DNA of 64,000 nucleotides from Glycomyces sp. YM15 (lineage in GTDB: Bacteria > Actinomycetota > Actinomycetes > Mycobacteriales > Micromonosporaceae), in the NCBI RefSeq assembly GCF_016918015.1, contig NZ_JAERMK010000004.1, positions 121,264-185,263 on the forward strand, in the 5' to 3' direction. Shown in pieces: positions 3,150 through 54,972 of the stretch. The translations under genes and the position numbers were made by a program. The notes below the pieces were generated by a model. The model was given only the letters and a program-made list of their open reading frames with translations. It was not told where the DNA came from and ran no database searches. How positions within the stretch are numbered: the stretch's first letter is position 1; each line of letters starts with the position of its first letter.

Positions 3150-5765
3150 TCAGGACTCGTAGACGATCCGGTGCGCCGCGTCGTGGGCGCGGCGGGTGAG
3201 CCTGCGGTAGTGGTTGAGGAACCGCTCGGTGTCCTCGCCGAAGCCGAGGGTCTGCGCCAGCGCCGCGAGTTCGGGGCCCGAACGCGGCAGGTCGTCGCGC
3301 GGGACGCCCCGCGCGAGCGTCATGTCGTTGCGCACCCGTGACACGAACTCCCAGGCCTCGCGCAGCGCCGCCAGGTCGTCGCGACTCAGGTACCCGGCCA
3401 CTGCGGCGGCCTCCAATGCCGGCACCGTCCGCGTCGTGCGCAGCGAGACGTCGGCCCCGTGTTCGAGCTGCAGCAGCTGCGCGGTCCACTCGATGTCGAC
3501 CAGTCCCCCGCGGCCGAGTTTGGTGTGGCCGTTGGGGTCCGCGCCTCGCGGCAGCCGCTCCGAGTCGACGCGGGCCTTCACCCGCCGGAACTCGATCCGC
3601 TCGGCTTCGGTCAGCCCGCCGGGCCGGTACCGGACCTTGTCCGCGAACGCGATCCAGGCCTGGCACAGGTCCGGATCTCCGGCGACCGGCCGCGCCCGCA
3701 GCAGCGCCTGGCGCTCCCACAGTCTCGCCCGGTCCGCGTAGTACCGCTGGTACGCGGCGAAACTCGGCGCGATCGGGCCGCCCTTGCCCTCGGGCCGCAG
3801 GTCGAGATCGATCTGGAGTGGAGGGTCGGCGGTCGGGGCGGCGAGGAGGGTGCGCACCGATTCGACGATCTTGGTGGCAGCCCTCGGGGAGCCTTCGCCC
3901 TCTCCGGTGTGGATGAATACGACGTCGGCGTCGGAGCCGAAGCCGGTCTCCCGTCCTCCCAAGCGGCCCATGCCGATCACGGCGATCGGCGGGGCGTCGG
4001 GGACGTCTCGTGAGGCGATGTGGAGGGCCGCGTCGAGCACCGAGTCGGTGAGGTCGGTGAGCGCGAGGCCGACAGCCTGGTCGTCGAGGAGCCCGAGGAG
4101 GTCGGCGGCGGCGACGCGGATGAGCTCGCGGCGGCGGATCGCGCGCACCGCGCCGATCGCGGCGGCCGGCTCGGCGTGCCGCGCGGCGGCCTGGCTCATG
4201 CCCATCGCGAGTTCGGCGCGCGAGCGCGGCGTGAGGTCGGCGTTGTCCGAGAGGTACCGAAGCGATTGCGGCACATGGAGCAGCAGACTGGTGAAGTAGC
4301 GGGAGGTGCCGAGGAGCCGGGCGAGGCGCACCGCCGCCGGGCCGCCGTCACGCAGCAGCCGCAGGTACCAAGGGGTGGAGCCGAGCTTGTCGGAGACCTG
4401 CCGGTACGCGAGGAGCCCTCGGTCGGGTTCGGGCGAGTCGGCGAGTTCGTGGAGCACGACCGGCAGCAGGGCCTTCTGCACTGTGGCCGTGCGGGAGACG
4501 CCGGCGGTGAGCTGCTTGATGTGGGTGAGCGCGCTCGCGGGGTCGGCGAAACCGAGCACGGCCAGACGCGAGGCGGCCTCGGATTCGGTCATGCGCAGTT
4601 CGTGGGTGGGCACGCGCGTCACGGCATCGAGCAGCGGCTTGTACAGCAGTTTCTCGTGCAGGCGGCGGGCGGTGGCCGCGTGGGCGCGCCACGCCGCGAG
4701 GAACGCCTCCTCGGTCTTGTAGCCGAGGGTCCGGGCGAGGTGGTGGAGCGGTTCGCCGCCTTCGGGGACCCGGTGGGTGCGCAGCAGCCGCTGGAGCTGC
4801 AGTCGGTGTTCGACGGTGCGCAGGAAGACGTAGGTGTCGGCGAGCTCGTCGCCGTCGCGCCGGGAGAGGAAGCCCGCGGCCACGAGGACTTCGAGTGCTT
4901 CCAATGTGGATCGGACGCGGAGGGTCGCGTCGCCGCGGCCGTGCACGAGTTGGAGCAGCTGCACCGCGAACTCGATGTCGCGAAGGCCTCCCGGGCCGAG
5001 TTTGATCTCGAAGCGGCGCTCGGCGCTCGGCACCGACTCGGCGACCTTGCGGCGCATGTCGCGGATGTCGGCGACGACGCCGGGCCGGTCGGCCGCGCCC
5101 CAGATGAACGGCTGCACGGCCGCGAGCCAGTCGAGCCCGAGCTGCAGGTCACCCGCGGCGGGCCGGGCCTTCAAGAGCGCCTGGAACTCCCAGGTGCGGG
5201 CCCAGTCCTTGAGATAGGCGAGGTACGAGTCGATCGAGCGCACGAGCGCGCCGTGGCGGCCCTCGGGCCGCAGCCCCGCGTCGACGGGCCAGGTCGCGGG
5301 CCCGACGATCTGGATCATACGGGCGGCCCGCCGGGTGGCGAGGTCGAGGTCGCCGTCGGCGACGAACACCACGTCCACATCGGACACATAGTTGAGCTCT
5401 TCCGCGCCGGTCTTGCCCATGGCGACGACCGCGAGCCTGGTCTCACCGGGGAGGTCTTCGCGGGCGAGTTCGAGGCCGCGGGCGAGCACCGCGTCCGCCA
5501 GGCGGGACAGGGCGGCCGAGGTGGCGCGCAGGTCCGTTCCGCCGGTGAGGTCGCGCGCGGCGATCCGCAGCAGGTTCGTCTTCCACGCGGCGTTGAGCTC
5601 GAACGCGCCCGCCTCGCGGATGCGCGCGAGCCCGGACTCCTCGTCCTCGGTGAGCGCGGCCTCCGTCTCGGGGTGGGCGCGCATGAAGTCGCCCAGCGCG
5701 TTGCTCGCCTCGATGACGGCGAGTCGTGCCTCGTCAGTGTTCGCGCTCTTCTCCGATTCAGGCAT
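3150..5765 (-). CDS. glnE: Glutamine synthetase adenylyltransferase / deadenylylase GlnE
   Basis: Bifunctional enzyme that adds AMP to, or removes it from, a tyrosine of glutamine synthetase I, tuning nitrogen assimilation. Both nucleotidyltransferase domains are visible. The N-terminal one has GKTGAEELNYVSDVDVVF near residue 118 and the C-terminal one has GMGRLGG followed by GFGSDADVVF near residue 605, each with its metal-binding Asp pair. The product is 871 residues, about 100 shorter than the M. tuberculosis protein; the missing part is the extreme N-terminus before the conserved ALGDxxxxHP segment. The ATG start overlaps the 3' end of the upstream amidotransferase gene by 8 bases, implying translational coupling. 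No in-frame upstream sequence looks like the missing part. Confidence 0.95.
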   Translation of the reverse strand: MPESEKSANTDEARLAVIEASNALGDFMRAHPETEAALTEDEESGLARIREAGAFELNAAWKTNLLRIAARDLTGGTDLRATSAALSRLADAVLARGLELAREDLPGETRLAVVAMGKTGAEELNYVSDVDVVFVADGDLDLATRRAARMIQIVGPATWPVDAGLRPEGRHGALVRSIDSYLAYLKDWARTWEFQALLKARPAAGDLQLGLDWLAAVQPFIWGAADRPGVVADIRDMRRKVAESVPSAERRFEIKLGPGGLRDIEFAVQLLQLVHGRGDATLRVRSTLEALEVLVAAGFLSRRDGDELADTYVFLRTVEHRLQLQRLLRTHRVPEGGEPLHHLARTLGYKTEEAFLAAWRAHAATARRLHEKLLYKPLLDAVTRVPTHELRMTESEAASRLAVLGFADPASALTHIKQLTAGVSRTATVQKALLPVVLHELADSPEPDRGLLAYRQVSDKLGSTPWYLRLLRDGGPAAVRLARLLGTSRYFTSLLLHVPQSLRYLSDNADLTPRSRAELAMGMSQAAARHAEPAAAIGAVRAIRRRELIRVAAADLLGLLDDQAVGLALTDLTDSVLDAALHIASRDVPDAPPIAVIGMGRLGGRETGFGSDADVVFIHTGEGEGSPRAATKIVESVRTLLAAPTADPPLQIDLDLRPEGKGGPIAPSFAAYQRYYADRARLWERQALLRARPVAGDPDLCQAWIAFADKVRYRPGGLTEAERIEFRRVKARVDSERLPRGADPNGHTKLGRGGLVDIEWTAQLLQLEHGADVSLRTTRTVPALEAAAVAGYLSRDDLAALREAWEFVSRVRNDMTLARGVPRDDLPRSGPELAALAQTLGFGEDTERFLNHYRRLTRRAHDAAHRIVYES

Positions 5766-6441
5766 CGAGTACCGGCAGCGCCTTCCGCTCGCCCGCGGTG
5801 ACGCGCGCGAACCGCTGGAGGATCGGCTTCCAGGTGGCGACGATGTGCTCGTCCACCGCCGCGGCCTTCGCGAGGGCGGCCTCGTCGAAGGCGCCGAAGC
5901 CCGCGAGCTGCTCGGGGGTGAACTCGAAGTGGGACTGGACGCCCCAGGCGGTGTCGCCGATGCGGAAGACCTCGAGTGCACCCTGCGGGGAGGCCGCGAG
6001 GAGCGTGGCCTCCGGCGGGAGTTCGACGAGCTCCTGGCGACGCCAGCGGATCACGTCGAGGGTCATCGGCGCGGGGCCGAAGATGAGGTCGCGTCCGGCG
6101 GCGTCGCGCTTGGCGAGCATCCGGGGCCCGAAGGGCTCATCGCGATCCTCGACGGTGCCGCCGAAGGCGGTGGCGAGCATCCGCGAGGAGGAGCAGACGG
6201 CGAAGACGGGGGTGGTGTCGGCGACCGCGGTCTCCATGAGCCCGGTGAGGTCGTCGGCCCAGTCCTTGCCGCGGCCGCCGCCGAGGGCGATGAGGGCGTC
6301 GTGCCCCCCGGCGGAGTTCGGCACGGCCTCACCGAGGTGGGGCCGCACCGTGTCGAATTCCATACCGGCTTCGGCGAGCCATGAGGCGGCCCGCCCGAGC
6401 CCTTGCGCGGGATCGTTCTCGACGACGAGTGCGGTGGTCAC
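5758..6441 (-). CDS. Class I glutamine amidotransferase-like protein
   Basis: The 227-residue protein has a class I glutamine amidotransferase fold, related to the GATase domain of GMP synthase. The nucleophile Cys is in FAVCSSSRM (about residue 82) and the His/Glu pair is in GVQSHFEFTPE (about residue 171), where HFE replaces the usual HPE. The oxyanion strand GGGRGKDW is present. The start is a GTG. It is directly upstream of and overlaps glnE, so the two are probably co-transcribed. The substrate is not known; a role in nitrogen metabolism is inferred only from the neighbour. The altered motif surroundings leave open a non-glutamine substrate. Confidence 0.75.
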   Translation of the reverse strand: MTTALVVENDPAQGLGRAASWLAEAGMEFDTVRPHLGEAVPNSAGGHDALIALGGGRGKDWADDLTGLMETAVADTTPVFAVCSSSRMLATAFGGTVEDRDEPFGPRMLAKRDAAGRDLIFGPAPMTLDVIRWRRQELVELPPEATLLAASPQGALEVFRIGDTAWGVQSHFEFTPEQLAGFGAFDEAALAKAAAVDEHIVATWKPILQRFARVTAGERKALPVLDA

Positions 6442-6795
6442 TCCCCCATGCTAATCCGTCGCGTGATCGCCACGTCGCGCTCCACCGCCACCGCCCGTCC
6501 GGGTCGGCGGCGGCAGGTGCGCGGCCCGGCGCCCGCGCGGCGGATTCGATAACGATTCGGTCGCTTTTGTGTCGAAAGCCGTTGCGCGCGTGCGAAACAG
6601 TTTTGGTTCTTCGCCAATTCGCCGCCGCCCGAGACTCCGCGGGGGCCTCGTCCCCGCAGGTGGGAAACCCAGCAATCACGAATCGATATTCACACGTGCA
6701 CATATAGTGCGTTCGAGTGGTTAACCGATGTTTCAGAGAACTGTGCTAAATATTGCCTTCTTCTCGGATCATTCCCCCACCCACCAGGAGATCCC
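6442..6795. promoter_or_regulatory. Divergent intergenic region before the WXG100-like cassette
   Basis: 354 bases separate the amidotransferase gene (minus) from the first cassette gene (plus), so promoters for both should lie here. The distal half is AT-richer, with a TAAATATT stretch around 6747-6755 that could be the -10 region for the cassette. A GCGGGG/CCCCGC hairpin is at 6639-6657. The TTG start at 6796 is preceded by AGGAG. No gene is seen. Confidence 0.4.
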
Positions 6796-7608
6796 TTGAC
6801 CGACACCGAATCCGGGGAGCGCTCTCACAACAGCTCCTGCGGCAACGTCTCCGTCATCACCGCCCCCGGGCGGTTCCCCGAGATCGCGCTCGCCGACGGC
6901 GCCGAACGCCTGTACACCCGCGATCTGGCCGAGCTCATCGCGACGACCGCCCGCGCCGCCGCCGACGCCGACCGGGCCGCCGCCCCCGCACCCGAAGCCG
7001 CGCCATCGGTCGAGGACACGATCGCCGTGCTCGCCGGACTGCGCGGCGACCTGCGCGACAAGGGCCTGCAGGCGACCATCGAGCAGCGACGGGACGAGGC
7101 CGTTCCCCCCGGCGAACGCGACCACCGCGACGAGCGGCTCACCGGCGGCCCGACCGGTCTGGCCATGCCCCCCTTCGCCGACGAACTCCTGTCCGACTCC
7201 ATCGCACTGCTGGAGCGCTTCAGCAAGCGGCCGCCGGGCAGCGGGAAGGACGACCAGAACCCCGAGCCCACGGGCACCGCCAAGAGCGAGAGCAAGCTCG
7301 TCGCCATCGAGTCCACCATGGCCTACCCCATCGCGAGCGTCTGGCTGAGCAAGCGCGCCTTCGAGATCGGCCCGAGGGCCCTCACCCGGGAGTTGAACGA
7401 GACCGCCGCGGCGGCCGCCGCCGACCTGGCGACCCGGGAGGACGACTACTTCTCCGGCCTCGGCCTCCCCCTCAGCCCCGGCGACCTCACCCCGCTCGCC
7501 GAGGAGAACCAGGCCCGGAGCGACCGGGCCTCGCAGGACCTCGCCACGCTCCAGGACCAGCAACGCCACATGACACGACTGTTCAACCAGGGAGGCTACT
7601 TTGCCTGA
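6796..7608 (+). CDS. Hypothetical protein, first gene of WXG100-like cassette
   Basis: I do not recognise a family for this 270-residue protein. It starts at a TTG with AGGAG five bases upstream. It has no signal peptide or membrane helix. Residues 1-60 include a Cys and a possible beta segment. Residues 60-150 are rich in Ala, Asp and Glu, followed by a charged linker with Pro/Gly (about 138-165) and a helical C-terminal half ending in a Gln-rich segment. Its stop overlaps the start of the next gene by 8 bases, so it belongs to the same operon as five downstream genes. The helical character would suit a secreted substrate or chaperone of a type VII-like system; that is inference. Confidence 0.6.
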   Translation: MTDTESGERSHNSSCGNVSVITAPGRFPEIALADGAERLYTRDLAELIATTARAAADADRAAAPAPEAAPSVEDTIAVLAGLRGDLRDKGLQATIEQRRDEAVPPGERDHRDERLTGGPTGLAMPPFADELLSDSIALLERFSKRPPGSGKDDQNPEPTGTAKSESKLVAIESTMAYPIASVWLSKRAFEIGPRALTRELNETAAAAAADLATREDDYFSGLGLPLSPGDLTPLAEENQARSDRASQDLATLQDQQRHMTRLFNQGGYFA

Positions 7609-7894
7609 GATCGACGGCGCCCGCATCGACCGGCTCGGCGACGACATCGAGCGCGAAGTCGGCGACATCCTCGTCGAGGCCAACGAGATCATCCCCGTGT
7701 TCCGCACCCTCGACCAGACGCTCTACACCTCCGTCGACGTCTCGCTCGCGGTCGCCTACACGCTCGCCACCAGCTACATGAGCTCCATGGTGCAGGGCGC
7801 CGCGGAGTGCTTCACGGGACTCAACGAAGACCTGACCGCGTCCGTGCAGGCCTGGAACGACGCCGACGACGCCGCCGCCAAGGACCTCACCTGA
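7601..7894 (+). CDS. Small helical WXG100-size protein
   Basis: A 97-residue, mostly helical protein of the size of ESX/WXG100 secretion substrates. It begins at a TTG with GGAGG five bases upstream, overlapping the previous stop. The likely layout is helix (residues 5-45), turn, helix (46-95), with an aromatic W near residue 85 (QAWNDADD) rather than a central WXG. The central part is hydrophobic (VSLAVAYTLATSYM), which suits coiled-coil packing with a partner. Its place directly before a protein with a DWSGDD motif supports a type VII-like link. The family assignment is tentative. Confidence 0.6.
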   Translation: MPEIDGARIDRLGDDIEREVGDILVEANEIIPVFRTLDQTLYTSVDVSLAVAYTLATSYMSSMVQGAAECFTGLNEDLTASVQAWNDADDAAAKDLT

Positions 7895-7927
7895 CCACCG
7901 CCCCGCCTCCCTGAGGAGCTTCACCGC

Positions 7928-8971
7928 ATGTCCTACACCGCCCCGGATCCCGCGCAGTTCGCCGGAATGGAACAGGCCTACTCGTACATGGCGCCCCTGG
8001 CCGCCGTCCAGATCGTCATGCCCGCGTTCACCTTCGCGGGACCCACCACCCAGATCTCCCGCATCATCTACATGAACCAGTGCAATCCCGGCCTCATCAT
8101 GCAGGTCGGCGCCTCCTGGCTCCAGCTCGCCGAGAAGTACCTGGCCGCCAGCGCGAAACTCAAGGAGAAGACCGGCGAGATCACCGAGCAGGACTGGTCG
8201 GGCGACGACCGCACGGCCTTCGACGACAAGGCCGACAAGATGGACGCCCAGCTCGTCATCATCGCCGCCTTCGCAATGCACGTGGGCATCTCGCTGTTCA
8301 TCATCGCCGCGATGCTCGCCGTCATGGTCCCCCTCATGCTCGCCGTCGCCACCTCGCTCATGGCGCTGTCGGTCTTCTACCTGGCCGTCAAGTTCGTTCC
8401 CGTCATCGGGTTGGCGGTGTCCGAGAACGTCCGCGTCATCGCCACCACCGTCGGCATGAGCTGCCTGGCCGTGCTCGAGACCCTCGACAAGGCGATCACC
8501 GCGGCCGCGCAGACGCTGGCGGCCTTCATCGGCGGCAACATGACCGCCTCCTGGGGCGCGCTGGCCTCGAAGGGCAACATGATCAACCCCCTGGACACGA
8601 TCGGCTCGACCGGGTTCAGCCTGCTCCAAGGGCTCTCGCAGATGGCGCTGCGCAACCTCATGGCCCCCGGCCGCACCGGCACCGGCACCATCGGCAAGTT
8701 CTCCCCCAAACTCGACGGGATGCTGGCGAAGGGGAACCCCGCCCTGACCAACTTCACCGGCGGCCAGGGCGTCTACAACATCGGCAACAACATCAACGGC
8801 GACGTCAACCCCGAAGGCGACGCCGAGCGATGGGACCGGCAGACCGGCGTCGACTTCGGCGGCCTCGACTTCATGCCCAACACCTTCGAGGAGCGGGCCC
8901 GCGAGGACGACACCGCTCCCCAGTGGCGCGACCCCGACGAATACCCCGAGGACGAGGCGGAGGAAGCCTGA
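7928..8971 (+). CDS. WXG100-domain protein with membrane-spanning helices
   Basis: The 347-residue protein has an N-terminal helical hairpin like that of WXG100/ESX proteins; the turn is marked by QDWSGDDRTAF near residue 89. Three or so strongly hydrophobic helices follow (about 115-180), rich in Met, Ala and Val. Then comes a Gly/Asn-rich region (210-300) and a very acidic C-terminus (EYPEDEAEEA). The start is ATG with GAGGAG upstream. The layout of hairpin plus membrane region plus variable tail resembles polymorphic type VII effectors or channel-like proteins, but no toxin motif is recognisable. It lies between two small helical proteins in the cassette. Confidence 0.65.
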   Translation: MSYTAPDPAQFAGMEQAYSYMAPLAAVQIVMPAFTFAGPTTQISRIIYMNQCNPGLIMQVGASWLQLAEKYLAASAKLKEKTGEITEQDWSGDDRTAFDDKADKMDAQLVIIAAFAMHVGISLFIIAAMLAVMVPLMLAVATSLMALSVFYLAVKFVPVIGLAVSENVRVIATTVGMSCLAVLETLDKAITAAAQTLAAFIGGNMTASWGALASKGNMINPLDTIGSTGFSLLQGLSQMALRNLMAPGRTGTGTIGKFSPKLDGMLAKGNPALTNFTGGQGVYNIGNNINGDVNPEGDAERWDRQTGVDFGGLDFMPNTFEERAREDDTAPQWRDPDEYPEDEAEEA

Positions 8972-8973
8972 GC

Positions 8974-9297
8974 ATGGCCGAGAGAACGATCGACCCCGAA
9001 GCCCTGGAGGAGTACCGAGCGGTCATCCGCGAGCAGCTCGACCTCCTCGACGCCATCGTCGGCAGGCTCGAGAACGGGCAGCCGCTCGGCCGCCTGCCCG
9101 CGTTCGGCCAGCTCGACGGCGCCGTGAGCGCCCGGCAGCACTACACGACCTTCCACGAGACGACCTGGACCAACCTGCAGAACCTGCGCGAATCCCTGCA
9201 CGGCATGATCACCACCCTCAACGACTCCGCGGAGCTCGCCGAGGAGGCCGACACGGACGCCGAAGCCGAAATGCTGGACTATGAGTCGCAGCTCTGA
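8974..9297 (+). CDS. Small helical WXG100-size protein
   Basis: A 107-residue protein that starts three codons after the start-proximal gene ends (TGAGCATG) and overlaps the following lipoprotein gene by 17 bases. It is predicted to be almost wholly helical. The turn carries Trp within TFHETTWTNLQNL (about residue 65), and the tail is acidic. Size, helix content and gene order resemble the paired small partners of WXG100 loci. No WXG tripeptide is present, so membership in that family is inferred rather than seen. Confidence 0.6.
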   Translation: MAERTIDPEALEEYRAVIREQLDLLDAIVGRLENGQPLGRLPAFGQLDGAVSARQHYTTFHETTWTNLQNLRESLHGMITTLNDSAELAEEADTDAEAEMLDYESQL

Positions 9298-10051
9298 CCG
9301 GTCCCGGCGCGCGCCCCACAGCCGCGGCGCCCTCGCGGCGGCCGTACTCGCGGTGACGCTGGCCGCGACCGCCGCCTGCGGCGGCGAAGCCCCCGCCACC
9401 GGCGACACGCCGCCCGGATCGCTGGCCGTGATGTCCGATTGGGACGGCTGCGACGTGTTCGCCGACCTCGCGGCGATCCAGGACCGCCTGGGCGTCACCG
9501 CGATCGACGGCGAGCTCCAGAGCGACGGCCTGGGCGAAGGCATCGACGCCGAGGCCGCCGGCTGCTCCGGACTGTTCGACCTGGCCACCTTCGAGGACAC
9601 CCAGGGGACGTTCGAATACCGGTCCACCGGGGACGCCGCCGTCCGCGCCGGACTCGCCCCCTGGAGCACCGAGGCCGAAGCCGAGGCGAACTTCTCCGAC
9701 CGCGTCGACCAGCGCCGCCGGAACCTTCCCGGCATCGACTACCTCGACGAGGTCGAAGGCGCACTCGGCGGCGCATGGGACGAGAGCCTCACCATCACCG
9801 CCGAGACCGAGCACCGCACCTACCTGGACGTATACGGCCGGTACGGGTCATGGGTCGTCTACGTGTCCGTCGACTACCTGCACGATCCCGGCGTCGGCGC
9901 CTACGAGTCCGCCCCCGAGTTCTACCCGGACTCCAGCGCCGAGCAGCTCGCCGTGTACCCCTTCACAACCGCACAGTTCACCGACTGGCTCGCGCAGGAG
10001 CACCTGCCGCAGATCCAGACCGACATCCTCGACCGAGCCGGAGGCGAGTAG
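9281..10051 (+). CDS. Secreted lipoprotein (DUF3558-like)
   Basis: A 256-residue lipoprotein with an Arg-rich n-region (residues 2-15), a hydrophobic stretch and a lipobox ending ATAAC, so Cys33 would be lipidated and the mature protein anchored outside the membrane. The mature part has paired cysteines (GCDVF and AGCSGLF), many acidic residues and a WVVYVSVDY strand. This pattern is like DUF3558 lipoproteins found beside actinobacterial WXG100 genes. The ATG lies inside the previous gene, suggesting coupled translation. It may guide or cap a surface-exposed cassette product; the function is unknown. Confidence 0.7.
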   Translation: MSRSSDRSRRAPHSRGALAAAVLAVTLAATAACGGEAPATGDTPPGSLAVMSDWDGCDVFADLAAIQDRLGVTAIDGELQSDGLGEGIDAEAAGCSGLFDLATFEDTQGTFEYRSTGDAAVRAGLAPWSTEAEAEANFSDRVDQRRRNLPGIDYLDEVEGALGGAWDESLTITAETEHRTYLDVYGRYGSWVVYVSVDYLHDPGVGAYESAPEFYPDSSAEQLAVYPFTTAQFTDWLAQEHLPQIQTDILDRAGGE

Positions 10052-10056
10052 CGGCC

Positions 10057-12015
10057 ATGGCCGAAGCAGACGACTTCGAACGCACTGAGTACGGCAAGAC
10101 GACCGAGGGCATGACCGGCTCTCAATACCAGGTGGCCGAGAACGCGCTCCTGGTCCAGCCGCAATGCGGCACCGACTCCTGCACCTGCAAGACCGAGGAG
10201 CCGGCCGAGGCGGCCTGGGTCAAACTCATGTCGGCCGTCCCCCAAGCGAACCAGATCAACAACCTGCGGGCCGCCCGCGAGGGCACCATGATGCTCCCGG
10301 AGGGCCAGACCATCCAGTCCATGGTCTCCTCGATCCGGCCTCAGCCCGAGGCCGACTACGCCCTCGACACCATCCGCGACGAGTGGAAGGACTTCTACGA
10401 GGACTTCCGCGTCATCGGGCCGAAGCTCCAGCAGGGCCTCACGGCCCTGTCGAGCGCTTGGAAGGGCGACGATTTCGACGCGTTCGAAGAGCAGGCCGAG
10501 ACCGTCGTCAAGAACTGCCAGACCCTCCAGGACGACATCGGCGGCGAGGACGGGACCGAGGGGATCATCAAGATCCTGGACGACAAGCAGCTGGAGATCT
10601 TCGAGCAGCAGGGCGGGACCGCGTGCGTCTACCCGGCGCCGAAGTTCTACATGGAGGGCACCTCCTGCGGTTCGCACCGCATCCACATCAGGCCCCCGTT
10701 CTTCAAGAACTGCGTGATCGAGGCCAACGACGAGATCAAGCACGCCGTCGAGCTGGCCGGATTCGACCCGACCGTGGTCGACGAGGTCCAGGAGGGCCGC
10801 CAGTCCACCTACGACCGGTGGATGGAGTACGTCACCGCCAATCCCGACTACGAGCAGAACGGGCTCAAAGGCGAGGCGCTGGCGCGGTCGAAGGCCGACG
10901 AGTACGCCGACCGGCAGCTGGTCGCCATGGGCGCCAAGGGCTCCGATCAGCTCGAGGAGCAGGCCGCGATCGTCAACGAGGAGGTGACCGAGCGGCACTC
11001 CAATGTGGAGGCGCAGGTGACCGAGATCCAGCCCGACGCGAAGCCGAGCGAGCCCACGACCTTCAACGACGGCCAGACCGACCTCCCCGACACCGGCGGG
11101 CTCGACATCGGCGACGGCGGCAGCGGCATGCCCGACCTCGGCGGCGGCGGTGGCGACCTGGACGGGATGGGCAAACCCGAGGACCTCACCAGCCTCAGCA
11201 CGGACGGCCTCGGCGGTCCGGGCGGCCAGTCCGGCGGCGGACCCACCCCCGACGCGTACAGCGGCGGCGACCTCGGCGGCCTCGACGAGGAGAACCCGTT
11301 CTCCTCCGGCGTGACCGACCCCGACGACCTCGGCGGACAGCCGCACGGATCGTACGGCGGCCCGGACCTGTCGACCACCGGCGGCAACCCGCCGGGGTAC
11401 ACCGGCAGCACCCCGGGCGAGTACACCGGCGGCGGCGACCTCGGCGGCCTCGACGACGACCCGTGGACCTCGAGCGAACTGCCCGATCCGGACGACGTGA
11501 GCGGCGGTCTCGCCTCCGGCGGCGGCGGCCAGATCCCCGGCGGTGTCGGGGGACCCAACAGCCTCGGCGGCGGAGGCACGGGGCTCAACCCGCCCGTGGG
11601 GCTCGGCGGAGTCGGCGGACGCACGCCCTCCACGCCGGCCGTCCGCGGGTTGACGACCGGAGCCAGCGGTCACACTTCCAAGCGTCCCAGCAGCATCGGC
11701 GGCGGGCTCAGAGGCGGATCGGGGTCGGCTCCCGGCGGCGGCCGGACCCCGAGCGGTCTCGGCGGCGGAGTCGGACGCGGCGCGGGCGGCATGGGCAGCG
11801 GAGCCGGAGCCGGACGCAGTGCGGGCGGAATCGGCGGCGCGGCCGGTCGCACCGCCGGCGCCGCGGGCGCCGGTGCGCACGGCATGGCGCCCGGCGTCGG
11901 CGCCAGGGGCGCCGGCGCCAACGAGGAGACGAAAGGCACCGAGACCTGGCTCGTGGAGGAGGACGACGTCTGGGGCGGTATGCCCGAAGACGAGGACGAC
12001 GACCCCTACGCGTAG
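10057..12015 (+). CDS. Large WXG100-domain protein with Gly-rich tail
   Basis: The 652-residue product has three regions. Residues 1-100 contain a Cys cluster (CGTDSCTCK, about residues 35-43). Residues 100-330 are helical and include the WXG-type turn SAWKGDDFDAF near 134, as in WXG100/PPE-like partners. Residues about 340-620 are low-complexity Gly/Ser/Pro/Asp repeats with recurring LGG and DLGGLD motifs. The C-terminus (ETWLVEEDDVWGG onwards) is acidic with two Trp, recalling the conserved tails of EspB-like or PPE-like proteins. It is the last gene of the six-gene operon and is followed by strong hairpins. It probably is an exported structural or adhesin-like protein; no enzyme motif is seen. 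Confidence 0.7.
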   Translation: MAEADDFERTEYGKTTEGMTGSQYQVAENALLVQPQCGTDSCTCKTEEPAEAAWVKLMSAVPQANQINNLRAAREGTMMLPEGQTIQSMVSSIRPQPEADYALDTIRDEWKDFYEDFRVIGPKLQQGLTALSSAWKGDDFDAFEEQAETVVKNCQTLQDDIGGEDGTEGIIKILDDKQLEIFEQQGGTACVYPAPKFYMEGTSCGSHRIHIRPPFFKNCVIEANDEIKHAVELAGFDPTVVDEVQEGRQSTYDRWMEYVTANPDYEQNGLKGEALARSKADEYADRQLVAMGAKGSDQLEEQAAIVNEEVTERHSNVEAQVTEIQPDAKPSEPTTFNDGQTDLPDTGGLDIGDGGSGMPDLGGGGGDLDGMGKPEDLTSLSTDGLGGPGGQSGGGPTPDAYSGGDLGGLDEENPFSSGVTDPDDLGGQPHGSYGGPDLSTTGGNPPGYTGSTPGEYTGGGDLGGLDDDPWTSSELPDPDDVSGGLASGGGGQIPGGVGGPNSLGGGGTGLNPPVGLGGVGGRTPSTPAVRGLTTGASGHTSKRPSSIGGGLRGGSGSAPGGGRTPSGLGGGVGRGAGGMGSGAGAGRSAGGIGGAAGRTAGAAGAGAHGMAPGVGARGAGANEETKGTETWLVEEDDVWGGMPEDEDDDPYA

Positions 12016-12124: not shown

Positions 12125-12144
12125 CTCCGCTCACGACTCGGGCC

Positions 12145-12260
12145 GGGGGGGGGGGGCCGGGGGGGGGGGGGGGGCGGCCGGGGGGCCGGGGCCGGCGGCG
12201 GGGGTGTGGCGCCCCGGCGGGCCCCGCGCCGGGCCCGGCGGGGGCCGCCCGGCCCGTCGC
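12145..12260. repeat. Poly-G tracts and GC-only low-complexity DNA
   Basis: G12 (12145-12156) and G16 (12159-12174) runs are followed by about 80 bases of nearly pure G/C. The tract is non-coding and follows a strong hairpin. I suspect a base-calling or assembly problem here; true length and content are uncertain. Confidence 0.6.
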
Positions 12261-53530: not shown

Positions 53531-53737
53531 ATGTCACGAACAGTCATCAACCTCGACGACGATCTCTGCGCCCAGGCGGCGGAGATCCTCGGAACCTCGA
53601 CGAAGGTCAGTACCGTCAACGCCGCGCTCAAGGAGATCGTCGACCGCCGGCGCCGCCAGCAGTTCCTGGATTGGCTCGCCGAGGGCGGCCTCGAATTCGA
53701 AGACCACAATGAGCTGCGGAGGCAGGCGTGGGGGTAG
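53531..53737 (+). CDS. vapB: VapB-type antitoxin
   Basis: A 68-residue antitoxin of the VapB / ribbon-helix-helix-like type: SRTVINLDDDLCAQAAEILG is the DNA-binding beta strand and helix, and the C-terminal half (RRRRQQFLDWLAEGGLEF) is the toxin-neutralising helix. ATG with GAGGGGG upstream; a GTG three codons earlier is less likely. The stop overlaps the toxin start by ten bases, so translation is coupled. Confidence 0.85.
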   Translation: MSRTVINLDDDLCAQAAEILGTSTKVSTVNAALKEIVDRRRRQQFLDWLAEGGLEFEDHNELRRQAWG

Positions 53738-54147
53738 CGACGCACCTCATCGACACCAGCGTGCTCAGTCGCATGAGGAAGCCGGCTGTGGCCGAACGGG
53801 CCGTTCCCCTCGTGCAACGCGGGATGCTGGCGCTATGCCGCCCGGTCGAAATGGAGATCATCTACGGCGCGCGAAATCCCGACCATTGCGCGTCGCTCAA
53901 GGACTGGCTGCTGGGTTTCGAACTGCTTCCCATGACCGACCAGATCATGGAACGAGCCGTCGAGGTGCAGACCGCGCTCGTGCCTTCGGCCGAGCACCGC
54001 ACCGTCCGGATGCCGGACCTCCTGATCGCCGCCACCGCCGAGCGATATGAAGTGCCCCTGCTTCACTACGACCGCGACTTCGACCGGATCGCGAAGATCA
54101 CCGGTCAGCCCACCGAGTGGGTCGTTCCCCCAGGAGAAGCGGACTGA
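53728..54147 (+). CDS. vapC: VapC-type PIN ribonuclease toxin
   Basis: A 139-residue PIN-domain RNase. The acidic site is complete: LIDTS (Asp9), EMEII (Glu), MPDLLIAA (Asp) and HYDRDFD (Asp). VapC toxins cleave specific RNAs, often tRNA, and are blocked by VapB. GTG start with GGAGG five bases upstream. A strong terminator follows the stop at 54167-54193. Confidence 0.88.
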   Translation: MGVATHLIDTSVLSRMRKPAVAERAVPLVQRGMLALCRPVEMEIIYGARNPDHCASLKDWLLGFELLPMTDQIMERAVEVQTALVPSAEHRTVRMPDLLIAATAERYEVPLLHYDRDFDRIAKITGQPTEWVVPPGEAD

Positions 54148-54217: not shown

Positions 54218-54655
54218 TCAGACGAGGGTGAAGCCCCGCAGTTCGGCTACGGCCGCCTGTTCCTTGTCGCGGGAGGCGAACGCGTAGGGTTCGCCGGCGG
54301 CCAGGTCGGGGAGCAGGAGCGTGGCGGTGGCGATGTGCCAGGCGTCCATGGCGCGGATGCCGTGGGTCGCGACGATCTCGAAGGCCTCGCCTTCGACGTC
54401 GTCCTGCGGGGCGGAGATGACCGTGATCGGGCCGTCGGGACCGGTGTCGGCGCGCCAGATGTCGAGCAGCTGGTCCTTGTCGCGGCGCTTGGCGCGGGCC
54501 GTGCGGACCAGGGCCCCGGCCACTTCGATGCGGGTCCACGAGCCGGTGACCACCAGGATCTCGGGGTCGCGCAGGAGTTTCAGGGCCTCGGCGTGGCCGC
54601 GTTCGTCGGGCAGGTACGAGCGCGCGAGCACCGACGAGTCGGCGTAGACGATCAC
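54218..54655 (-). CDS. PIN-domain ribonuclease toxin (second TA module)
   Basis: A 145-residue PIN-domain protein with VYADSSVL (Asp6), WTRIEVAGAL (Glu), MDAWHIA (Asp) and ASRDKEQ (Asp), the usual four acidic residues. It is a VapC-like RNase toxin. The GTG start overlaps the antitoxin stop by four bases (GTGA). It is convergent with vapBC. The target RNA is unknown. Confidence 0.87.
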   Translation of the reverse strand: MIVYADSSVLARSYLPDERGHAEALKLLRDPEILVVTGSWTRIEVAGALVRTARAKRRDKDQLLDIWRADTGPDGPITVISAPQDDVEGEAFEIVATHGIRAMDAWHIATATLLLPDLAAGEPYAFASRDKEQAAVAELRGFTLV

Positions 54656-54972
54656 AGGAGGCGGTCCCGGTCTTCCTCGAAGATCTGGTCGATGATCGGG
54701 CCGACGCCGCGCATCGAGTCGAGCACGCGGGCGCGCAGCGCTTCGACGTCGCGGACCGGTGTCGGTTCCTTCGCGACCTTCAGCGGCGGCGCGAGCATGC
54801 CGAGGGCCGCGGCCTTCGCCCGGACTTTCTCAGTCGCGGTGCGGCCGTCCTTCTCGCCGATGACGGAGAGGATCTCGTTCGCGATCGCGTTGACCGAACG
54901 GTGCTCACGCTTCGCCCGTTCGGTGAGGCGAGCGTGAAGATCGTCGTCAACGCGCAAGAGCAGCTGTTTCAT
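54652..54972 (-). CDS. Ribbon-helix-helix antitoxin (second TA module)
   Basis: A 106-residue antitoxin: the N-terminal LLLRVDDDLHARLTERAKRE with SVNAIANEIL is the RHH DNA-binding fold, as in FitA/VapB, and the C-terminal half (ILDQ/IFEEDRDR) would cover the toxin. ATG with TATCAT ending six bases upstream, so the mRNA is probably leaderless, and an ATAGCACTAT palindrome overlaps this -10, fitting self-repression. Confidence 0.85.
   Translation of the reverse strand: MKQLLLRVDDDLHARLTERAKREHRSVNAIANEILSVIGEKDGRTATEKVRAKAAALGMLAPPLKVAKEPTPVRDVEALRARVLDSMRGVGPIIDQIFEEDRDRLL

Follow-up and report, generated by a model that had tools for sequence, protein, structure and literature searches.

A two-module gene unit of Glycomyces sp. 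YM15 that probably supplies substrates and a chaperone to an ESX secretion system

Which machinery could handle the products of a gene unit that encodes WXG-type proteins and has no type VII secretion component beside it? This question is raised by six plus-strand genes, here called A to F, at positions 6796–12015 of a 64,000-nucleotide stretch of the Glycomyces sp. YM15 genome (5.67 Mb). The whole stretch, referred to below as the window, lies on contig 34. We propose that A–F are probably an accessory ESX (type VIIa) operon of two modules, which would encode ESX substrates together with a chaperone. The proposal is based on sequence comparison and on analogy with the Esp trios of ESX-1.

Six co-directional open reading frames (ORFs) had been described here in the original prediction, and their coordinates, directions and sizes were borne out. 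The ORFs are more than chance, since 8 of 22 Glycomyces genomes have orthologues in the same order, although F of one of the eight runs off the contig end. All six were also picked by a gene caller based on codon usage, with the start of E at 9353. As A, C, E and F, but not B and D, were part of its training set, only its picks of B and D are independent. The genes had further been described as overlapping, which is true for A/B (8 nucleotides) and D/E (17 nucleotides), whereas the remaining junctions are gaps of 33, 2 and 5 nucleotides.

The unit consists of two modules, ABC and DEF, and is not one indivisible cassette as originally assumed. A ninth Glycomyces genome carries A–D as far as its contig end. 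Apart from these ordered copies, A-B-C is followed in seven loci by a gene of 406–427 residues belonging to no known NCBIfam family and stands alone in one locus, and D-E-F or D-F occurs without ABC at many loci. Genome G010 keeps only D-E-F at the site that holds A–F in G013 (L144 vs. L058). Likewise, G012 keeps D, F and a 169-residue ORF beginning like A at the site that holds A–F in G015 (L093 vs. L060). The F profile matched all 22 Glycomyces genomes and the C profile 21 of them; strong F copies (E-value < 1e-30) number 2–7 per genome by our count.

Adjacency was counted by script on the full data, eight short loci having been excluded beforehand. Of 33 loci, 31 have B ahead of C and one has the two fused, and full-length A sits two genes upstream of C in 26. 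A neighbouring D accompanies 56 of 57 F calls (upstream in 11, upstream with E in between in 26, downstream in 19), the 57 including one duplicate, as L064 repeats L115 at a locus edge. The one F call that lacks a neighbouring D comes from L143, where F is broken and this call is its second half. Outside Glycomyces, three genomes of another genus of the family (L100–L102), which we take to be Micromonospora, keep a B-C pair at a single site, with a single-domain YbaB-like gene nearby. In a different family, A-, B- and C-like genes are grouped in two genomes (L103, L104).

Two of these loci are unusual in themselves. The B-C fusion (L069, positions 6778–8178) is a single ORF of 466 residues with a Gly-Ala-rich linker. 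The broken F of L143 (positions 5015–6725, genome G003) is split into two calls beside a shortened E call and is probably a decaying copy.

In order to classify the proteins we scanned Pfam, NCBIfam and PADLOC. Scanned as single sequences, the six window proteins did not reach any curated cut-off, whereas per-member Pfam scans of the families of A, B and C gave a consistent picture. A single weak PADLOC match of C to Cas3HD (0.0014) was judged unlikely. Profile-profile comparisons (hhalign) employed fixed seed families with controls; among seven control families the only value above 5% was 12.6%. A loose iterative hidden Markov model search in a small database was discarded because it drifted: C joined F, and B joined C via the fused gene.

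Gene A (6796–7608) encodes a YbaB/EbfC-like protein of 270 residues, probably with two YbaB-like halves. The Pfam model YbaB was found in 19 of 24 family members (best E-value 4.2e-10; the 24 include four single-domain relatives), and hhalign aligned A with YbaB proteins at 93.4% over residues 130–267. Gene B (7601–7894, 97 residues) encodes an EspC-like, small helical partner. EspC (PF10824) was listed for 14 of 32 members of its family (best 3.3e-4), and comparison of B with WXG-type partner proteins gave 82.7%. The window's own A and B had no match to the YbaB and EspC models, respectively. A C-terminal motif, [W/Y/M]xxx[D/E], is present in all 32 B members, its first residue being Y in 2 of them and either W or Y in 22. 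The unit had been described as a WXG100-like cassette, but neither B nor D of the window matches the WXG100 model (PF06013). In the B family this model was found for one member of 32 only (0.078).

Gene C (7928–8971, 347 residues) encodes a PPE/EspE-like WxG protein with long, strongly hydrophobic helices after a hairpin. Its family matches the Pfam models PPE (18 of 27 members, best 1.3e-6) and WXG100 (12 of 27, best 3.7e-5), and hhalign gave 75.7% against WXG100_2. The predicted WSGDD turn is present at residues 90–94, and its W, G and last D are invariant in 27 of 27 rows. No EspA or EspE model was among the seven Pfam families listed for C members at an E-value ≤ 0.1, and we do not claim membership of these families. 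A low-confidence model of the B-C pair places helices on both sides of the WxG motif, in line with the helical hairpins on which the original link to type VII secretion depended. The modeled pair (again at low confidence) aligns best to EspB, with 7–14% identity in those rows. Foldseek alone returned no match at an E-value ≤ 0.001 for either model, and a profile search of PDB sequences yielded only weak rows for B and C. By sequence, ABC combines a YbaB-like protein, proposed to be a chaperone, with an EspC-like protein and a PPE-like partner.

The second module begins with D (8974–9297, 107 residues), the small partner of F. D has no consistent Pfam match and belongs to no recognizable family; WXG100 was found in 2 of 22 members (best 0.02). 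Its hhalign value to WXG partners is 50% for a paralogue group but 4.6% for D's own group. A conserved YxxxD/E-type motif was not seen by eye, and the PDB-sequence profile search gave nothing useful. Gene E (9281–10051, 256 residues from the earliest ATG) encodes a predicted lipoprotein of no known family, in which the lipobox-type Cys33 and two further cysteines, Cys57 and Cys95, are invariant in 16 of 16 members. The earlier description of E as DUF3558-like is not supported, DUF3558 being unlisted for all 16 members at an E-value ≤ 0.5. Pfam offered nothing useful for these members, and E had no match among PDB sequences searched by profile.

Gene F (10057–12015) encodes a WXG-domain protein of 652 residues. 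Its N-terminal region contains two invariant cysteines as well as invariant P49 and W54 and is followed by the WXG region, a Gly-rich stretch and a conserved C-terminal tail (11923–12012, TWLVEEDDVWG...DDDPYA). The WKGDD turn had been correctly predicted (residues 135–139), and W135, G137 and D139 are invariant in 14 of 14 rows. WXG100 was found in 7 of 14 family members (best 2.7e-6, window member 0.075), and one F paralogue of the same genome, on contig 2, passes the WXG100 cut-off. In the PDB profile search, 4 of 11 rows, including the top two, were of EsxA/WXG100 type at the WXG region (E-values 0.02–0.05); we take the chains 3gvm and 3o9o to be EsxA. Strong F-profile matches were confined to Glycomyces among the samples searched (22 of 22 genomes).

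A search of the window by tblastn with the ESX proteins of the same genome found no relative of EccC, EccB, EccD, the presumed EccE or mycosin, in agreement with the original prediction. An ESX locus is located on contig 12, where EccB (7.6e-58), EccC (three FtsK stretches), EccD (1.4e-76), a mycosin-type subtilase and a WXG100 pair are encoded within 20 kb. The earlier suggestion that the A–F products would use a type VII system encoded elsewhere is supported by this locus and by the profile and model links of B-C to PE/PPE/Esp pairs, of A to YbaB-like proteins and of F to tailed WXG proteins of ESX loci in other genera. EccC exceeded the curated cut-off in all 22 Glycomyces genomes. Among 64 Glycomyces loci including the window, only weak EccC-like matches (L106, L099) and one weak subtilase match (L094) were observed. 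In the literature library searched, no paper joined Glycomyces with type VII secretion, and one of three that joined YbaB and WXG100 with type VII secretion is the EspL paper; to our knowledge the role of ESX systems in soil actinomycetes is poorly known. In excerpts of PMC4791881, ESX-4 type clusters are reported for Glycomycetales and Micromonosporales.

Homologues of C do occur in genomes with type VII components. EccC was present in 8 of 8 genomes tested, most of them chosen from the best of 29 C-positive genomes outside Glycomyces. In a phylum-wide sample the C profile matched 4 of 396 genomes, all with EccC, compared with EccC in 32 of 396 overall; three of the four were short matches to the WxG region only.

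The C-terminal tail of F is conserved: of 54 long F calls, 52 pass a filter for the D-P ending, with W-G before it. Six proteins of 376–388 residues encoded beside D-F pairs end like F, and the member of this group in the same genome matches WXG100 over the cut-off. We built a tail profile (30 columns, 18 rows) and searched 298 genomes of the order at an E-value ≤ 0.01. It matched 62 genomes, 54 of them outside Glycomyces. Six non-Glycomyces genomes of the same family, presumably Micromonosporaceae, were matched by the F N-terminal profile, and in all six the tail lies in the same ORF and frame. The eight matches of this profile in other families have no tail.

We read 39 regions around the best 40 of 62 non-Glycomyces tail matches (E-values up to 0.0012). 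EccC is encoded in 22 of these regions, a mycosin-like subtilase without EccC in 13, and neither in 4, two of which are cut by contig ends. In 23 regions a called gene with a W-x-G motif ends with the tail; in 9 the tail lies inside a longer called gene, and in 7 no gene was called there. Of the 23 clear cases, 22 have EccC or a mycosin-like gene no more than 10 kb away (EccC 10, subtilase alone 12). Eight control regions from comparable genomes contained none of the five ESX genes. F therefore has relatives among the proteins encoded in ESX loci of other genera.

C-terminal sequences of WXG100 proteins are known to bind EccC/EssC (PMC11217815, in excerpt), and the tail, found near EccC and mycosin, is a candidate targeting signal. 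A tentative extension, which we consider possible although the odds are against it, is that, in the family to which Glycomyces and its relatives belong, the W-L-x-E-D-x-D-V-W-G tail serves large WXG substrates as a C-terminal signal for export or processing, which EccC or the adjacent mycosin would read and which is undescribed as far as literature searched by topic rather than by motif can tell. In Glycomyces the tail would have been multiplied, along with D and partly E, to give a family of surface complexes; the Esp-type chaperone trio, familiar from pathogenic mycobacteria, would be a general module of soil actinomycetes.

Based on these comparisons we propose the following mechanism. B (EspC/PE-like) and C (PPE/EspE-like) would form a four-helix bundle. 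Since ABC has the same three ingredients as the Esp trios, A is proposed, by analogy, to be the cytosolic chaperone that holds the B-C pair until it is handed over to the ESX membrane complex encoded elsewhere. D and F would form a second WXG-type pair, in which F would most likely contact the machine, either EccC or mycosin, through its conserved acidic-aromatic tail. E would be exported separately as a lipoprotein and, on the outer side of the membrane, may hold or receive D-F. The end result would be an envelope or surface complex and not a toxin.

Both genes flanking the unit are on the minus strand; by their sequences we take them to be a glnE-side gene on one side and a glnA-like gene on the other. 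The interval between F and the latter (12140–12260) is nearly pure G/C with long G runs, possibly an assembly or low-complexity artefact. Elsewhere in the window, two small gene pairs resembling VapBC toxin-antitoxin pairs, as judged from gene calls only, lie end to end (53531–54147 and 54218–54972).

Several observations limit the case for an ESX role of A–F. EccC was found in 16 of 16 genomes of the same order in the phylum sample, and since it is near-universal there, its co-occurrence with the unit in a genome is uninformative. Against this role, comparison with the WXG100 pair of the genome's own ESX locus by hhalign gave low values (B 3.7%, D 9.6%, C 2.0%, F 1.7%). Finally, most Glycomyces genomes contain, as judged by similarity, a paralogous cassette that stands beside a VirB4-like ATPase where its context was read, which keeps alive the idea of a type IV-like machine discussed below.

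The similarity of C to WXG100_2 would also fit a different function of ABC, as an antibacterial effector module that is stripped or divergent. The own genome and another family contain YbaB-WXG-WXG100_2 triads with the same gene order (L050, L054, L097, L068); as candidate toxin-delivery triads they could include the window copy or be its source. The 406–427-residue gene after C in seven loci could then be a partner or immunity gene. Yet across the genus most of C can be aligned, with no swapped C-terminal domain, and three genomes of another genus retain B-C at a single site with shared flanking genes. Moreover, the Pfam matches of the C and F families include no toxin family, although no search was aimed at immunity genes. 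We therefore consider this explanation unlikely. Irrespective of the window unit, the triads of this type in the own genome (L050:12646–13905, L053:8218–9650, L054:7692–9480, L097:8842–10601) are candidate type VII effector modules.

Slightly less likely still is that the A–F proteins serve a chromosomal type IV-like (VirB4/Tcp-like) machine instead of ESX. A paralogous A'-B'-C'-F'-D' set is encoded beside a VirB4/TcpF-like ATPase and small membrane proteins in L050, L064, L065, L108 and, cut, in L142. Such neighbours are missing around the window copy and around those in another genus of the family, and the tailed relatives of F sit in ESX loci. WXG, EspC and PPE proteins are, in addition, established type VII substrates. 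As to the type IV-like chromosomal cluster itself, its ATPase has 864–872 residues, L050 corresponds to G000:C2:18001–38000, and only small neighbours of the cluster are in view in L066, L113 and L143.

That the proteins stay in the cell or membrane with a regulatory role, A being a nucleoid DNA-binding protein (YbaB is reported to bind DNA; PMC6107294, in excerpt) and C being a membrane protein by its strong hydrophobic helices, is improbable in view of the invariant WxG in C and F, the partner genes fixed to each, the predicted lipoprotein in the operon and the tail common to ESX-locus proteins.

The features expected of ESX substrates that were found are the invariant W-x-G in C and F and ESX machinery in the same genome. 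Those of an EspH/EspD-type trio are a YbaB-like gene with the pair and a small partner of the EspC family, the latter at family level and with no match for the window's B. If the assignment is true, the YbaB/EspC/PPE-like trio of Glycomyces, together with the B-C pair and YbaB-like gene in another genus of the family, would be a harmless, genetically distant model for how such chaperones and their partners work.

Small helical partner genes beside a large substrate gene, as observed here, are also found with LXG toxins and their Lap partners (type VIIb). In contrast to these, C and F members matched neither an LXG nor a toxin family in Pfam. EspB and the PE-PPE pairs resemble B-C in the low-confidence model at 7–14% identity; B-C differs in being two chains and in the long hydrophobic helices after the hairpin. 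F shares with the tailed WXG proteins beside EccC or mycosin in genomes of the same family the W-x-G region and the C-terminal W-L-x-E-D-x-D-x-W-G tail. Compared with those, F is longer, has two invariant N-terminal cysteines, ends in D-P-Y-A instead of P-G-V/I-L-R and is encoded with D away from ESX loci, in 2–7 strong copies per genome.

The closest known counterparts of ABC are the EspE-EspF-EspH and EspA-EspC-EspD trios of mycobacterial ESX-1, in which a YbaB-like protein, a small EspC-family protein and a larger partner are likewise encoded together. According to excerpts of PMC6107294 and PMC6319747, EspH of M. marinum binds EspE and is needed for secretion of EspE and EspF, EspD stabilizes EspA/EspC, and EspH (by structure prediction) and EspL are predicted to be YbaB-like; the authors proposed YbaB-like proteins as dedicated chaperones. 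The excerpts of PMC3482391 and PMC11217815 do not mention YbaB. In contrast to the Esp trios, A appears to have two YbaB-like halves, C matches PPE and WXG100 models with no EspA/EspE model listed, and the host belongs to an order reported, in the excerpts of PMC4791881, to have ESX-4 type clusters. The unit resembles the Esp trios and has unfamiliar parts besides.

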